A stretch of 35,166 nt of DNA from Fibrobacterota bacterium (GTDB lineage Bacteria; Fibrobacterota; Fibrobacteria; UBA11236), in the NCBI GenBank assembly GCA_023249635.1, contig JAHFCH010000047.1, forward strand, positions 1 to 35,166. Reading direction: 5' to 3'. The notes below the pieces were generated by a model. The model saw only the letters and a list, made by a program, of their open reading frames with translations. It searched no databases and was not told where the DNA came from. The position numbers and the translations under genes were made by a program. Position 1 is the stretch's first letter, and each line of letters begins with the position of its first letter. Shown here piece by piece: positions 13,201-27,985 of this stretch.

Positions 13201-13388
13201 GGTTTCCGCCAAAATGGCGCGCTTGCTGCGTAACAGAAGATACTTGGCGCCGCCCCCTTTGGCAAGCGGACAGACGGGCGTTAAGTCGCGCCGGCGCTAA
13301 GACTTATTGCGCGGGCTGCCGCGGAAATCCGCCCTGGCGCTACAAAGGCCGGAATGGGCTTTCTAACTTTCAGTTTTTAAGGAAGAAA

Positions 13389-14420
13389 ATGGCAATCAAG
13401 GTCGGTATCCTAGGCGCCACGGGCTTCACCGGGCAGGAGCTCATGGTGCTGCTGCTGCGGCATCCCCAGGTCGAGATCGCGTGGTTGAGTTCGGAATCGC
13501 AGCCGGGCACGGACTACGGCAAAATCTATCCCCAATTCCAGGGACGCCTGCCGGCATCGGTCGGAATCCTGCGCAGCTTCGCCGACGTGAAGGCCACGCA
13601 ACCGGACGTGGTGTTTTCCTGCCTGCCCCATGGCGCCTCGGCGGAATGCGCCGCGCCTTTCGCGGCCAACGGCAAAACCCTGGTGATCGATCTTTCCGCG
13701 GACTTCCGCCTGCAGGACCTGGCAGCCTACGAGAAGGCGTATGCCCACCCGCATCCCCTGCCCGAGGTGCTGAAACAGGCGCGTTACGGCCTTACCGAAA
13801 TCCACGCGGACGCGATCAAAGGCGCGCGCCTGATCGCGAATCCCGGATGTTATCCCACCTCGGCATTGCTTCCCCTGATGCCGCTGATCCAAGCCGGCGT
13901 GATTTCCCCGGACGGCATCATTATCGATTCCAAGTCCGGTGTTTCGGGCGCGGGGAAAAAGCCCACCGAAACCACCCATTACGTATACGCCAACGAAAGC
14001 GTGGCCGCCTACGGCGTGGGCGACAAGCATCGTCATCGCGTCGAGATCATGGAGCAGCTCTCGTTATCCGCGGGCCGCAAGGTCGAAGTCCTTTTCACGC
14101 CCCACCTGATTCCCATGGAACGCGGAATCCTGTCCACCATTTATTGCGATCTAGCCCCAGGCAAGGACGGCGCGGCCGCCGAAGCCTGCCTCAAGGCGGC
14201 TTATGCGGGCGCCGGGTTCGTCCGCATCCGCGAGGATTTCCCGCGCACCGCGGACGTGAAGCATTCCAACTTCTGCCACATCAAGGTTTACCAGCCGGCC
14301 GGCGGAAACAAGCTGATCATCGTTTCCGTATTGGACAACATGGTGAAGGGCGCCTCCGGCCAAGCCCTGCAGAACATGAATCTGGCCCTGGGGCTGCCCG
14401 CCGGCCTCGGTCTGGCCTGA
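13389..14420 (+). CDS. argC: N-acetyl-gamma-glutamyl-phosphate reductase
   Basis: 343 residues. It catalyses the NADPH-dependent reduction of N-acetylglutamyl phosphate to the semialdehyde in arginine synthesis. The N-terminal Rossmann motif GATGFTG (residues 9-15), the catalytic cysteine C154 in IANPGCYPTS, SGVSGAGKKP, and the histidine-rich GDKHRHRVEI are all present. The start ATG has AAGGA 5 nt before it; the frame is open further upstream, but the extra residues do not resemble the family. It overlaps argB by one base (TGATG), so the two are translationally coupled. Clear member of the classic ArgC family. Confidence 0.98.
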   Translation: MAIKVGILGATGFTGQELMVLLLRHPQVEIAWLSSESQPGTDYGKIYPQFQGRLPASVGILRSFADVKATQPDVVFSCLPHGASAECAAPFAANGKTLVIDLSADFRLQDLAAYEKAYAHPHPLPEVLKQARYGLTEIHADAIKGARLIANPGCYPTSALLPLMPLIQAGVISPDGIIIDSKSGVSGAGKKPTETTHYVYANESVAAYGVGDKHRHRVEIMEQLSLSAGRKVEVLFTPHLIPMERGILSTIYCDLAPGKDGAAAEACLKAAYAGAGFVRIREDFPRTADVKHSNFCHIKVYQPAGGNKLIIVSVLDNMVKGASGQALQNMNLALGLPAGLGLA

Positions 14421-15202
14421 TGACCGCGCGCCCCATCGTCGTCAAAATCGGCGGCTCCATGATGGACGACGAGACCGCCCTGACCGGCCTGTGCGAAGCG
14501 CTCGCGGGCTTGGGCAAAACCTCGGCCGCGCCCTTGGTCCTGGTCCATGGCGGCGGCAAGGATATCAACCGGCACCTAGCTTGGCTAAACGAAGAACCCG
14601 TCTTCAAGGACGGGCTGCGCGTGACCGGGCCGGCCGCCCTGAAAGTGGTCGAGATGACCTTGAGCGGCTATGTGAACAAAAAGCTGGTGGGCCTGTTGAA
14701 CGCCCACGGCGCCAAAGCCGCGGGACTGAGCGGCGTGGACGGCCCTACCTTCCTGTGCGAACCTATTTCCCCGGAACTGGGCCAGGTCGGCAGGATCGAG
14801 ACGGTGCGGACCGGATTGGTTGATGTGCTGCTGGCCGGCGGATTCCTGCCCGTGGTCTCTCCCATCTCCGTCGACGAACGGCAGGCGCATTACAACGTAA
14901 ACGCGGACGATGCCGCGTCCGCACTGGCAATCGCCCTGCGGGCGGAGAGATTGATCTTCGTTTCGGACGTCGAGGGCGTGCGCGGCGCGGACGGGATGCG
15001 GATCGCGGATCTGGACGGCACCGCCATCGATAAGCTCATCGCCGACGGGGTGGCCTCGGGAGGGATGATCCCGAAGTTGCGCTCGTGCAAAGCGGCAGTG
15101 GCGCGGGGAGTGGGAGCGGTGCATATCTGCGGTTGGGACGGGGAAGGGAAATTCGCTGCTCAGGTGAGCGGAAAAGCCAACAGTGGGACGATAATCAAGT
15201 GA
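14420..15202 (+). CDS. argB: Acetylglutamate kinase
   Basis: 260 residues, typical for the enzyme. It phosphorylates N-acetylglutamate, the second step of arginine synthesis and often the feedback-controlled one. Visible family motifs are VVKIGGSMM (residues 7-15), LVLVHGGGKDINRHL, the N-acetylglutamate-binding YNVNADDAASALA and the nucleotide-site SGGMIPKLRSC. The N-terminal extra helix found in arginine-inhibited hexameric forms is absent, so it may be insensitive to arginine or regulated otherwise; that is inferred. The ATG overlaps the argC stop. It is followed by a palindromic repeat before argD. Confidence 0.97.
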   Translation: MTARPIVVKIGGSMMDDETALTGLCEALAGLGKTSAAPLVLVHGGGKDINRHLAWLNEEPVFKDGLRVTGPAALKVVEMTLSGYVNKKLVGLLNAHGAKAAGLSGVDGPTFLCEPISPELGQVGRIETVRTGLVDVLLAGGFLPVVSPISVDERQAHYNVNADDAASALAIALRAERLIFVSDVEGVRGADGMRIADLDGTAIDKLIADGVASGGMIPKLRSCKAAVARGVGAVHICGWDGEGKFAAQVSGKANSGTIIK

Positions 15203-15216
15203 AAGGCGGGAAGAGA

Positions 15217-15299
15217 GGTTTAAGGGGATAGGTTTAAGGTCTAAGGTTTAAGGGAAAACGCCCCCCTTAAACCTTAGACCTTTGACCTTAAACCTTCTT
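15217..15299. repeat. Palindromic intergenic repeat of 7-nt units, copy 1
   Basis: The left arm (15231-15254) is built from heptamers TTTAAGG, TCTAAGG and TTTAAGG followed by GG; the right arm (15264-15294) carries the complements CCTTAAA, CCTTAGA, CCTTTGA and CCTTAAA. The core 15240-15254 pairs perfectly with 15264-15278 around a 9-nt loop, and the outer parts pair if one extra heptamer bulges out. A further partial unit (GGTTTAAGGGG) lies at 15217-15227. The same element occurs at 26465-26536; both end in AAACCTTCTT close to a plus-strand start codon. Confidence 0.85.
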
Positions 15300-15310
15300 C
15301 TTCATACACA

Positions 15311-16483
15311 ATGGAACAACAACACCTGCTCCAAAATTACGGCCCCCGCGATCTCACCCTGGTGCGCGGTAGCGGCTCCTGGGTGTGGGACGACAAGGGC
15401 AATCAGTATCTCGACTGCGTGCAGGGCGTCGCGGTCAATGCCTTGGGGCATGCGCATCCCGCGGTGGTGGCGGCGGTACAGGCGCAGCTCGGCAGCCTGA
15501 TGCATGCCAGCAATCTCTATCTGCTTCCCACCCAGATGAAGCTCGCGGAGGAATTGTGCGGGGCCATGGGGATGGACGCGGCCTTCTTCTGCAATAGCGG
15601 CACCGAAGCCAATGAAGGCGCCATCAAGTTCGCGCGCAGGCATTGGCAGGATCAAGGCAAAGCGGGCAAGCTGGGAATCCTCTCCTTCACGCATTCTTTC
15701 CATGGGCGCACCTATGCCTCCATGGCGGCCACCGGCCAGGAAAAGATCCGCAAGGGATTCGGTCCGCTCCCCGAGGGATTCCGGATTCTGCCCGTGAACG
15801 ATTCGGGAGCCTTGCGCGCCGCGGTGAACGAGGATACGGCCGCGGTTATTTTCGAACCCATCGAGGCCGAAGGCGGCATCATCCCCATGGAGCCGGCCAT
15901 GGCCCAGGCCCTCAAGGAAGCCCAGGCCCGCGGTGTATTGCTGATTGCCGACGAGGTGCAGACGGGCTTCGGGCGTACCGGCGAAATGCTGGCTGCGCGC
16001 GCGCTGGGCCTGGAACCCGATCTCATCACCCTGGCCAAGCCCCTCGGAGGCGGTCTGCCCCTGGGCGCGGTGCTCCTGAAGAAGTCCATTGCCGATTCCA
16101 TCCATGCCGGTGATCACGGATCGACATTCGGCGGCAACCCGGTCGCCTGCGCCGCGGGACTGGCCGTGCTGGGCGAATTGCGTCGCGAGGGTTTTCTGGC
16201 CGACGCGCGCGCGCGGGCCGCCAAACTGCGCGGGGAACTGGAAGCGCTGGTAACCCGCAAAGCCGCCAACGGCGCGCCCTGGGGTCCCGTGGTCGGCAAG
16301 GGTTTTCTGACCGGATTCCGCTACGGGGGCGATTTGGGAGCGTTCCAGAAGGCCTGCCGGGAACAGGGCCTATTGGTCCATCGCGCCGGCCAGGATGTGG
16401 TTCGGCTATTGCCCGCATTGAACATCAGCCATGAGGAAATCGGCGAGTTGATTGACCGCCTGGAAAAGGCCATGGTAGAATGA
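15311..16483 (+). CDS. argD: Acetylornithine aminotransferase
   Basis: 390 residues, PLP-dependent class III aminotransferase that converts N-acetylglutamate semialdehyde to N-acetylornithine. Visible are the PLP-phosphate region FFCNSGTEANEGAIK (92-106), the SFHGRTYASMAATGQ stretch, D214 in IADEVQTGFGRTG, and the Schiff-base lysine K243 in TLAKPLGGGLP. Family neighbours such as ornithine or succinylornithine aminotransferases share these motifs, but the arg context supports ArgD. No Shine-Dalgarno sequence precedes the ATG; instead the palindromic repeat ends 11 nt upstream, so the repeat may lie in its leader. Confidence 0.95.
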   Translation: MEQQHLLQNYGPRDLTLVRGSGSWVWDDKGNQYLDCVQGVAVNALGHAHPAVVAAVQAQLGSLMHASNLYLLPTQMKLAEELCGAMGMDAAFFCNSGTEANEGAIKFARRHWQDQGKAGKLGILSFTHSFHGRTYASMAATGQEKIRKGFGPLPEGFRILPVNDSGALRAAVNEDTAAVIFEPIEAEGGIIPMEPAMAQALKEAQARGVLLIADEVQTGFGRTGEMLAARALGLEPDLITLAKPLGGGLPLGAVLLKKSIADSIHAGDHGSTFGGNPVACAAGLAVLGELRREGFLADARARAAKLRGELEALVTRKAANGAPWGPVVGKGFLTGFRYGGDLGAFQKACREQGLLVHRAGQDVVRLLPALNISHEEIGELIDRLEKAMVE

Positions 16484-17084: not shown

Positions 17085-17619
17085 CCTCAAAGTCTTGATC
17101 TATAACCCCGTCTCCTGCCCCCGCGATTCAAAACCGGACCGCTGACAAAATTCCAGATCGTATTCGCGCGTGAGACTGGACGCGGCCGGTGCGCGAGGTT
17201 TTTCCGCCGCAGGTAGGGGCCGCCTGACCGGGGCGCGGGAGTGGGGAGGCGGGGCGCGGCGAATCAAGGCGGATGGCCTTTGGGAATCGCGAACAGACTT
17301 CGCCTGAAGCCTGTTCGCGCATCGGCACATCGGCCGCTCCGCTTGTGCGCGGACGCCGCGATTTCCAAGGGCCAGGCGACCCAGCGCATTGTCGAGCCTT
17401 GCCCCGCCGCGGACCGCCTCCCCGACCCCGCGCCAGTAGACTCGCGGAAGCCCCTAGGTAGCGGCTGGTGAACGCCCCGCCCTTTAGCGAGAAGGAAATC
17501 GCTCCGCGATTTCCCCCGTTTCCCTTCGCCCTCCCGGGCTCAGGGTTCTATCCCGAGCCGCCCAAATACTACATTTGGCTGAAACTTTGCGGTTCGAAAA
17601 TGCCGCGTCGAAAGGTCCC
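17085..17619. other. 535-bp gene-free region upstream of argG with strong hairpins
   Basis: No convincing coding frame was seen here. Two notable hairpins are present: CGCGAACAG / CTGTTCGCG (17288-17296 with 17311-17319, with an inner CTTC / GAAG), and GGAAATCGC / GCGATTTCC (17494-17502 with 17506-17514, 3-nt loop). Close to argG is the short palindrome CCAAAT-N5-ATTTGG (17562-17578). I see no match to known riboswitches, tRNA, tmRNA or RNase P RNA. It may hold a leader, an attenuator or a small RNA, or be a decayed gene. Confidence 0.5.
17562..17578. promoter_or_regulatory. Short palindrome CCAAAT-N5-ATTTGG before argG (possible operator)
   Basis: A perfect 6-bp inverted repeat with a 5-bp spacer lies 41 bp before the argG ATG, in the only AT-rich patch of the leader. 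It does not fit the E. coli ArgR box. A role as regulator site is a guess based on position. Confidence 0.25.
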
Positions 17620-26113: not shown

Positions 26114-26425
26114 ATGAATAGAACTGCCGGTGTCGGCCGATTGGTGGTTTTCATCCTGCTGGGTCTTATCCTGGGCGGAATCCTGGGCGAGGTGCTGGGT
26201 CTGGTGCTGGGCCAAATCGGGGTCATGAGCGGAGGCGACATCAACAATCCCATCCGCAATTTCTTCGTCAAGGCCTGGGAGCCCGACCTGGGCTTCCGCG
26301 ACGGCTGGGCCCTGGACCTGTACATGATCAAGATCCGGCTGGGATTGGGCTTCAAGTTCAATACCTGCAGCATCCTGGGGATGATCCTGAGCCTGTATAT
26401 CATGAAGTGGTCGAATCGGGGCTGA
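26114..26425 (+). CDS. DUF4321 family small membrane protein
   Basis: 103 residues. A first hydrophobic helix (VVFILLGLILGGILGEVLGL) and a second near the C-terminus (TCSILGMILSLYIM) with the conserved middle LDLYMIKIRLGLGFKFN match the DUF4321 pattern. Its function is unknown; it lies 21 nt after htrA with GGGAG before the ATG, so it is likely co-expressed with the protease. An envelope role is inference. Confidence 0.85.
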   Translation: MNRTAGVGRLVVFILLGLILGGILGEVLGLVLGQIGVMSGGDINNPIRNFFVKAWEPDLGFRDGWALDLYMIKIRLGLGFKFNTCSILGMILSLYIMKWSNRG

Positions 26426-26464: not shown

Positions 26465-26536
26465 GGTTTAAGGTCTAAGGTTTAAGGGGGAATCCTGTCT
26501 TCTGCTTTACTTAAACCTTAAACCTTAAACCTTCTT
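26465..26536. repeat. Palindromic intergenic repeat of 7-nt units, copy 2
   Basis: Left arm 26465-26490 has the same heptamers as copy 1 (TTTAAGG, TCTAAGG, TTTAAGG, then GGG); right arm 26510-26533 is three tandem CCTTAAA-type units. The arms pair around a loop of about 20 nt, with one mismatch. It ends in AAACCTTCTT 27 nt before gatA. The loop sequence differs entirely from copy 1, while the arms are conserved. Confidence 0.85.
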
Positions 26537-26563: not shown

Positions 26564-27985
26564 ATGCCTACCATCGCCGAAACCGCCCGTAAAGTCCAGT
26601 CCGGAGAGGTCACCGCCGAATCCCTGGTGACCGATTCCCTGGCCAAGATCGAAGCTTCCAAAGGGCTGAACGCCTACATCTCGGTGTTGGCCGATTCGGC
26701 CCTGGAACGGGCCCGCGGTTTGGACAAGCGGCGCATGGCGGGCGAGAAGCTGGGGCCCTTGGCGGGCATACCCATCGCCATCAAGGACAATATCGTGACC
26801 TCGGCGGGGCGCACCACCTGCGGTTCCAAAATCCTTTCCGCCTTCAAGTCCCCGTACGATGCGACCGCCGTGGAACTCTTGCTCGCGTCCGGAGCCATAC
26901 CGGTGGGCAAGACCAACATGGACGAGTTCGCGATGGGATCGACTTCGGAAACCAGCGCGTTCGGCGCGCCCAAGAATCCCCTCGATGAAGGCGTCATCGC
27001 CGGAGGCTCCTCCGGAGGATCCGCGGTCGCGGTCGCCTCGGGTACCGTCGCCGCCTCCTTGGGCTCGGACACGGGTGGTTCCATCCGGCAGCCCGCCTCG
27101 TGCTGCGGTCTGGTGGGGGTGAAACCCACCTACGGTCGCGTCTCGCGTTACGGCCTGGTGGCCTACGCTTCTTCGCTCGATCAGATCGGTACCTTCGGCA
27201 ACTCGGTGGCCGATGCCGCCTACCTGCTGAACTCGGTTTGCGGATGGGATTCCCACGACAATACCTCGGCCCAGGTGGCCGTTCCCGACTTCACCGCTTC
27301 GCTCTCCAAAGGCATCAAAGGGAAAATCATCGGACTGCCCAAGGAATGTTTCGGCGTAGGACTGCAGCCCGAAGTGCGTTCCGCCATCATGAAGGCCTTG
27401 GAAACCCTGGAAAAGGCCGGCGCGGTGATGCGCGAGGTTTCCATCCCCAGCTTCCAATACGCCGTGGCCGCTTACTACGTAATCGCCACCGCCGAAGCAT
27501 CGGCCAACCTTTCCCGGTACGATGGCGTGCGCTATACCTCGCGTTCCAAGGACGTGAAGGATCTCTTCGGCTTATATGCCAAGTCGCGTTCCGAGGGATT
27601 CGGGGAAGAGGTCAAGAAGCGCATCCTGTTGGGCACCTACGTGCTCAGCTCCGGCTTCTACGACGCGTACTATATGCAGGCCCAGAAAGTGCGCCGCCTG
27701 ATCACGGACGATTTCAACAAGGCCTTCACGGCCTGCGACGTGGTGGTGACCCCGACCATGCCCACCCTGCCGCCCAAGCTGGGCGCCATCTACAGCGATC
27801 CCATGGCGCAGTATCTGGGCGATATCTATACGGTGGCGGTGAACCTGGCGGGCCTGCCTGCCTCGTCCCAGCCGGTGGCCAAATCGGGCAAGCTCTCGGT
27901 GGGCCTGCAATTCATCGGCAAGGCCTTCGGCGAAGAAGAATTGCTCCAGGTGGCTGCTGCCACCGAAACCCTCTGCAAGAACTGA
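26564..27985 (+). CDS. gatA: Asp-tRNA(Asn)/Glu-tRNA(Gln) amidotransferase subunit A
   Basis: 473 residues. GatA is the amidase subunit that supplies ammonia to convert Glu-tRNA(Gln) or Asp-tRNA(Asn). The Ser-cisSer-Lys triad is K74 (AIKDNI), S149 (GGSSGGS) and S173 (TGGSIRQPAS). The characteristic GLVGVKPTYGRVSRYGLVAY and GTYVLSSGFYDAYYMQAQKV stretches separate it from other amidases and mark it as GatA. gatB and gatC are not adjacent, so they must lie elsewhere. There is no ribosome-binding site at the ATG; the palindromic repeat is just upstream. Confidence 0.96.
   Translation: MPTIAETARKVQSGEVTAESLVTDSLAKIEASKGLNAYISVLADSALERARGLDKRRMAGEKLGPLAGIPIAIKDNIVTSAGRTTCGSKILSAFKSPYDATAVELLLASGAIPVGKTNMDEFAMGSTSETSAFGAPKNPLDEGVIAGGSSGGSAVAVASGTVAASLGSDTGGSIRQPASCCGLVGVKPTYGRVSRYGLVAYASSLDQIGTFGNSVADAAYLLNSVCGWDSHDNTSAQVAVPDFTASLSKGIKGKIIGLPKECFGVGLQPEVRSAIMKALETLEKAGAVMREVSIPSFQYAVAAYYVIATAEASANLSRYDGVRYTSRSKDVKDLFGLYAKSRSEGFGEEVKKRILLGTYVLSSGFYDAYYMQAQKVRRLITDDFNKAFTACDVVVTPTMPTLPPKLGAIYSDPMAQYLGDIYTVAVNLAGLPASSQPVAKSGKLSVGLQFIGKAFGEEELLQVAAATETLCKN

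Follow-up and report, generated by a model that had tools for sequence, protein, structure and literature searches.

Among the closest described counterparts of the palindromes considered here are the intervening sequences (IVSs) of 23S rRNA genes and the heptameric repeats of Xanthomonas and Nostoc. The Coxiella burnetii IVS is 428 nt long, has a 28-bp terminal stem, is excised by RNase III and carries strain-variable tandem GACAGAT heptamers ahead of its S23p ORF (PMC4990558). The repeats of the second group have the units GGGAATC or GGGGA(C/T)T and, according to the passages of the report that deal with them, the GGGAATC heptamers form 70 inverted pairs in X. campestris, lie at a mean of 28 nt behind ORFs, are rare between divergent ORFs and vary in unit number (PMC4692102). 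Those passages on heptamers do not mention IVP, the S23p protein of rRNA IVSs, though X. campestris encodes one (2GSC, XCC0516), and a link between IVP and heptamers was not found in the open-access PMC literature that was searched.

The window analysed here, a stretch of 35,166 nt, belongs to an uncultured Fibrobacterota MAG (G000; 6.75 Mb, 341 contigs, 95% complete), which was compared with five congeneric MAGs (G001 to G005). Copies were sampled by region, the regions being partly picked for elements, and gene context was taken from a home-made gene caller, whose gene set for the window was plausible and which placed a stop codon inside the element in a few cases. An initial annotation had described two palindromes of 7-nt units in the window, and both are present (Table 1), with registered arms and with folding far better than that of shuffled sequence (z-scores of -6.1 and of -3.5 to -4.3, equalled by 0 of 200 shuffles). 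The motif TYTAAGG occurs 15 times in the window versus 4.0 expected, the maximum of 100 shuffles being 10. The "one extra" unit ascribed to the right arm of copy 1 is correct when the right arms of the two copies are compared, but the left arm of copy 1 is longer still, with one of its five units a variant. The middle unit of the right arm of copy 2 carries a C-A mismatch on the plus strand. The loops had been called unrelated, which is true of the two in the window, whereas some loops elsewhere in the genome are clearly related. The downstream start codon, proposed as the landmark of both copies, gives way to the upstream stop codon (14 and 39 nt away) as the informative one. No Rfam match was obtained anywhere in the window, a terminator scan found nothing at either copy, and neither copy contains an IVP ORF. 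Elsewhere in the window, a 39-nt inverted repeat (17232-17434; 79% complementary, 125 nt apart) occupies the gap between a cyclic-nucleotide-binding-like gene and the next gene, and a lone GGGCGTTAAG at 13276-13289 is perhaps the relic of a GGGCGTC-family arm.

Table 1. Palindromic elements of the window with their neighbouring genes, and IVP ORFs enclosed by heptamer arms in the genus.
Feature	Position	Strand	Remarks
argB	14420..15202	+	upstream of copy 1; gene model; name from the initial annotation and operon context
Copy 1, whole	15217-15294		between argB and argD
Copy 1, left (G-rich) arm	15217..15253	+	GG + TTTAAGG, GGATAGG, TTTAAGG, TCTAAGG, TTTAAGG; strict 7-nt register
Copy 1, loop	15254..15264		GAAAACGCCCC
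Copy 1, right (C-rich) arm	15265..15294	-	CCTTAAA, CCTTAGA, CCTTTGA, CCTTAAA + CC
argD	15311..16483	+	follows copy 1; 70-85% identity to the orthologues of five congeners
Small gene	26144..26425	+	upstream of copy 2
Copy 2, whole	26465-26531		before the gatA-like gene; three units, 22-nt loop, three units
Copy 2, left arm	26465..26487	+	GG + TTTAAGG TCTAAGG TTTAAGG
Copy 2, loop	26488..26509
Copy 2, right arm	26510..26531	-	three heptamers (reverse complement of TTTAAGG)
gatA-like gene	26564..27985	+	follows copy 2; 80-89% identity to the orthologues of five congeners
IVP ORF	L275:1953-2383		within inverted heptamer arms
IVP ORF	L272:6304-6773		within inverted heptamer arms
IVP ORF	L262:4072-4504		within inverted heptamer arms

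Genome-wide, TYTAAGGTYTAAGG (TYTAAGG-TYTAAGG) has 175 and 164 matches on the two strands, whereas a control read backwards has 0; from these counts the number of elements in G000 is roughly 100. The dispersed family kept for its paired arms that had been suspected from two copies is borne out, as is the gain and loss of heptamers. The 49 elements read with gene context in G000 consist of a G-rich left arm, a loop and a C-rich right arm, with a median length of 72 nt; the order TTTAA-TCTAA-TTTAA was found in 35 arms, and of the 277 units about 96% have the canonical form. The longest helix of the elements has a median of 23 bp (MFE -38 kcal/mol), and the terminal inverted repeats build a long stem of the kind by which 23S rRNA IVSs are recognised. 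Most loops differ, though GGGTnGGTCCnrTAGGCCCGGTC recurs in one group of them, with scores of up to 41 where those of shuffles do not exceed 23. At tandem sites the sense RNA does not fold more stably than the antisense (p 0.06, in the wrong direction), and this comparison therefore lends no support to selection on the RNA stem itself. At C339:5674-5762 of the same genome, AGGGTTG heptamers, possibly coding, are repeated along a single strand and lack an inverted partner.

The elements lie between protein genes, including genes of one operon (parE-parC, pheS-pheT by Pfam, argB-argD), and no insertion in a 23S rRNA helix was encountered among them. The dnaX-ybaB junction, which we take to be a further operon junction with an element in G000, was recognised from the gene sequences only. 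The gaps that hold elements in G000 are tandem in 36 cases, convergent in 13 and divergent in none (0/49), versus 41 divergent among 167 background gaps of at least 100 nt (depletion p 2e-6), and a flanking stop codon lies within 50 nt for 59 of 62 distances (median 16.5 nt). The 22 elements read in G004 behave alike, with divergent gaps at 0/21 versus 54/189 in the background and a median stop-codon distance of 11 nt. When periods of 4 to 12 were tested, period 7 alone was clearly enriched at gene gaps.

Arrays of TYTAAGG were found in none of the five congeners, three of which (G004, G002 and G003) hold abundant inverted-heptamer hairpins of other units. AGGGTNN has 112/113 matches in G004; GGGCGTY has 69/67 in G002, 36/34 in G000 and 3/1 in G003; and AAATTGM has 16/10 in G003, with small numbers in G001, G002 and G005, its only carriers among 168 genomes of the phylum being four members of the host's genus. 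The arms are nearly identical within a species and differ between species at orthologous sites: in six G000/G004 pairs the elements sit at exactly the same junction, with different heptamers and without conservation of the loop. With the argB-argD pair excluded as the starting point, at least 5 sites are shared versus 0.41 expected with only non-divergent gaps allowed (P about 7e-5). At parE-parC, G000 carries TYTAAGG, G004 AGGGTNN, G003 AAATTGM and G001 an AAAAGTN-like array, while G005 is empty and G002 shows the minimal empty junction TAAG|ATG; by eye, the arms of G001 there read as mixtures (AAATTCA, AAAGTTA, AAGGTCA). At argB-argD, G000, G004, G003 and G001 have elements, G005 retains a single AAATTGM arm as a relic, and G002 is empty. 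Of the G003 element loci that were read, five, among them parE-parC, fall where an element was sampled in G000 or G004; at one of the five, G003 and G001 have the same loop (score 40; 0/2000 shuffles), whereas G004 has another loop and heptamer.

Empty orthologous sites thus exist in some congeners, and the comparison of relatives that the initial annotation had called for does yield differences of presence and absence; the unit specificity at shared sites, and the association with IVP described below, are beyond what it could see. At the few loci where filled and empty sites were compared, the junctions are too diverged to define a target-site duplication. The idea that loops pre-date arms was dropped, since the empty sites inspected in congeners did not contain the loops. 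Elements of one species were also searched for traces of the other's unit, and no convincing hybrids emerged. Read from sequence, the pattern is the signature of concerted evolution or of repeated replacement at preferred sites, two processes that are not fully separable. Two further kinds of repeat were seen in the congeners, namely a second hairpin family in G004, attC- or insertion-like in appearance, whose members have a loop like GCCCGCGCTCTTCAAATGCGCGGGC in common but differ in their arms (L100:11093 and 18593, L103:7031 and 7376), and a palindromic repeat built on GGAGTTTGCTTCGCAAACTCC that is common to G002 (L095:1244-1330) and G003 (L099:8343-8405). One contig of G000 (C48, L065:17083) ends near a junction at which G004, G003 and G001 all have elements. 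Assembly breaks at heptamer repeats may lead to an underestimate of the copy number in G000, and such repeats could affect metagenome assembly generally.

In a few pairs the arms are separated by about 400 nt, and the three pairs that were inspected on account of this spacing all enclose a 23S_rRNA_IVP ORF (PF05635, E 4e-35 to 5e-38; TIGR02436, four helix bundle protein). A weak match to Avd, the accessory protein of diversity-generating retroelements, was also obtained with two of these ORFs, and the best PDB match of the genus IVP is 2GSC, the Xanthomonas S23p structure. The enclosing arms are AGGGTNN in G004 and GGGCGTC in G002 and G000, whose copies are orthologous and represent one locus; TYTAAGG arms with an IVP between them were not seen. 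Purifying selection acts on the ORF (pN 0.18, pS 0.86 between the G000 and G002 copies). No further IVP gene was found in the other sampled DNA of the genus, nor in 40 additional stretches centred on GGGCGTC matches, in which the pairs are short and gene-less wherever both arms lie inside the contig; a search of a phage collection gave no IVP match.

The generality of the association was examined with 33 plasmid IVP records, of which 18 genes, from Cyanobacteriota, Bacteroidota and Pseudomonadota, were scored for inverted arms. Such arms flank 13 of the 18 (score at least 29; shuffle 99th percentile 25), and the best period is 7 in 11 of these 13; significant inverted arms are missing at the other 5. 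In a control with mismatched left and right flanks the 95th percentile was 28, with a high tail that arises partly from plasmids sharing a unit. The units include AGGGTGT in Calothrix, TAGGGAG in Nostoc, CAGGAGT in Aulosira and Trichormus, GGGAAAA, AGAGGAC in Azospirillum, and GGTTTAA/GGTTCAA in Riemerella, the last being almost the unit of the window; the Nostoc copy sits between two ribonucleotide-reductase genes.

Taken together, these data are best explained by a reading in which the window palindromes are gene-less mini-elements of an IVP/intervening-sequence-like class, inserted behind stop codons, to which we assign a probability of about 0.6. Insertion just behind a stop codon, within operons or between convergent genes, would do the least harm to the host. 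Upon co-transcription the arms would form a double-stranded stem and, with a median longest helix of 23 bp, would be a plausible RNase III substrate, so that an insertion between operon genes could leave the mRNA much as IVSs are cut from pre-23S rRNA. The likeliest trans-acting factor for mobility or maintenance, and as yet a candidate, would be IVP. Slippage may change arm length, and homogenisation within a species may then give rise to a species-specific heptamer while many sites remain shared.

The likeness to 23S rRNA IVSs extends to the inverted arms forming a long stem, the IVP/S23p ORF in the loop of long copies, the heptamers of variable number by the ORF in Coxiella, and a selfish character with no evident host function. 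In contrast to IVSs, the elements occupy junctions of protein operons rather than rRNA helices, reach about 100 copies per genome, mostly lack an ORF and have both arms made wholly of heptamers, and cleavage by RNase III is in their case predicted. The comparison with MITEs that accompany an autonomous partner, raised by the initial annotation, is a fair analogy, as many short copies with terminal inverted arms stand beside rare long copies that enclose a conserved gene, although such long copies were seen in the GGGCGTC and AGGGTNN families and none for TYTAAGG. Unlike MITEs, the elements have no known transposase, and the short copies are mostly without a common interior; at the few loci compared, no target-site duplication could be defined.

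The other likeness put forward initially, to REP/REPIN elements moved by RAYT (a Y1 transposase), fares worse. The elements do share with REPs, REPINs and BIMEs a palindromic, extragenic nature, a place at gene 3' ends, an avoidance of divergent gaps and copy numbers of about 100 or more. However, Y1_Tnp (PF01797) is absent from G000, itself a MAG at 95% completeness, and from four of the five congeners, while control genomes were positive; there is no conserved REP core, the arms consist of heptamers in varying number and similarity between the loops is mostly undetectable, which makes this origin very improbable. Nor is it easy to regard the elements as plain quadruplex-type simple-sequence repeats, prone to slippage and tolerated where genes end, as has been proposed for the Xanthomonas and Nostoc heptamers. 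Tandem 7-nt units of varying number, convergent inverted pairs close behind stops and the avoidance of divergent gaps all agree with that proposal, the placement being that given in the relevant passages of Rehm et al. (2015). In contrast to those repeats, as far as these passages describe them, almost all units here are paired, isolated single arms being rare in the sample, and units such as TTTAAGG, AAATTGM, AAATTGA or GGTTTAA hold at most GG and so lack the G-triplets of a quadruplex. Slippage alone, moreover, cannot put one unit at about 100 loci and another at the orthologous loci of a sister species, and we consider this account improbable. DNA-uptake sequences likewise occur behind genes as inverted pairs, with dialects that differ between species at positions they share, a resemblance that would suit spread by biased transformation. 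However, most uptake sequences are solitary and scattered through coding DNA, and single TYTAAGG units outside the elements show no excess (26 found versus 23 expected in 480 kb); we regard this explanation as very improbable.

Gene-end terminators or attenuators, with heptamer stems that arose by chance and are kept by selection for a 3' hairpin rather than by mobility, would account for elements 10-40 nt past stop codons. Folding of the loops is somewhat better than that of shuffled sequence (KS p 0.002 and 0.03), some AAATTGM and GGGCGTC loops form GC-rich stems followed by T-rich stretches, and one such loop is kept between G003 and G001. However, the elements also lie inside operons, no directional T-tract follows them (4.5 T per 10 nt sense versus 4.3 antisense), the scan for terminators was negative at the window copies, and both the identity of heptamers within a species and the IVP genes are left unexplained; we therefore judge this unlikely, if less so than the preceding accounts. 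A more serious, though still doubtful, alternative is that different families inserted independently at a few hot-spot sites, with neither an ancestral element nor any rewriting of heptamers, which would replace one part of the IVP-based reading and is compatible with the rest. The lack of loop conservation at sites shared by G000 and G004, and the minimal empty junctions of some congeners such as parE-parC in G002, are in line with it, and site sharing could indeed stem in part from insertion hot spots. However, sharing exceeds expectation even among non-divergent gaps, and the loop common to G003 and G001 and the one-armed relic in G005, with its same heptamer, point to ancestral occupancy.

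A bolder version of the IVP-based reading, offered tentatively, is that of a hitherto unrecognised mobile class that crosses phyla, in which an IVP (Avd-like) gene within inverted heptamer arms is accompanied by gene-less swarms, and in which a template-dependent process, possibly one that reverse-transcribes the hairpin after its excision by RNase III, rewrites the arms throughout the genome of each species, changing the unit but leaving the sites in place. If true, this would bring rRNA intervening sequences, the Xanthomonas heptamer palindromes and the heptamer repeats of cyanobacteria together in one class. Already on the IVP-based reading itself, the gene-end heptameric palindromes and the S23p/IVP gene of rRNA IVSs, two orphan phenomena, appear to be parts of one element. 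A candidate protein would thereby be available for the heptamers and a candidate substrate for IVP, both testable in culturable hosts such as Nostoc and Calothrix. The species-specific heptamers at conserved junctions would also exemplify clearly how very short, dispersed DNA evolves in concert, a process for which we know of no established mechanism. On plasmids of Anabaena, Pseudanabaena and Picosynechococcus (L315, L321 and L320), IVP genes were also observed between CRISPR-cas genes (cas6/cas4, cas10/cmr3), again at operon junctions.
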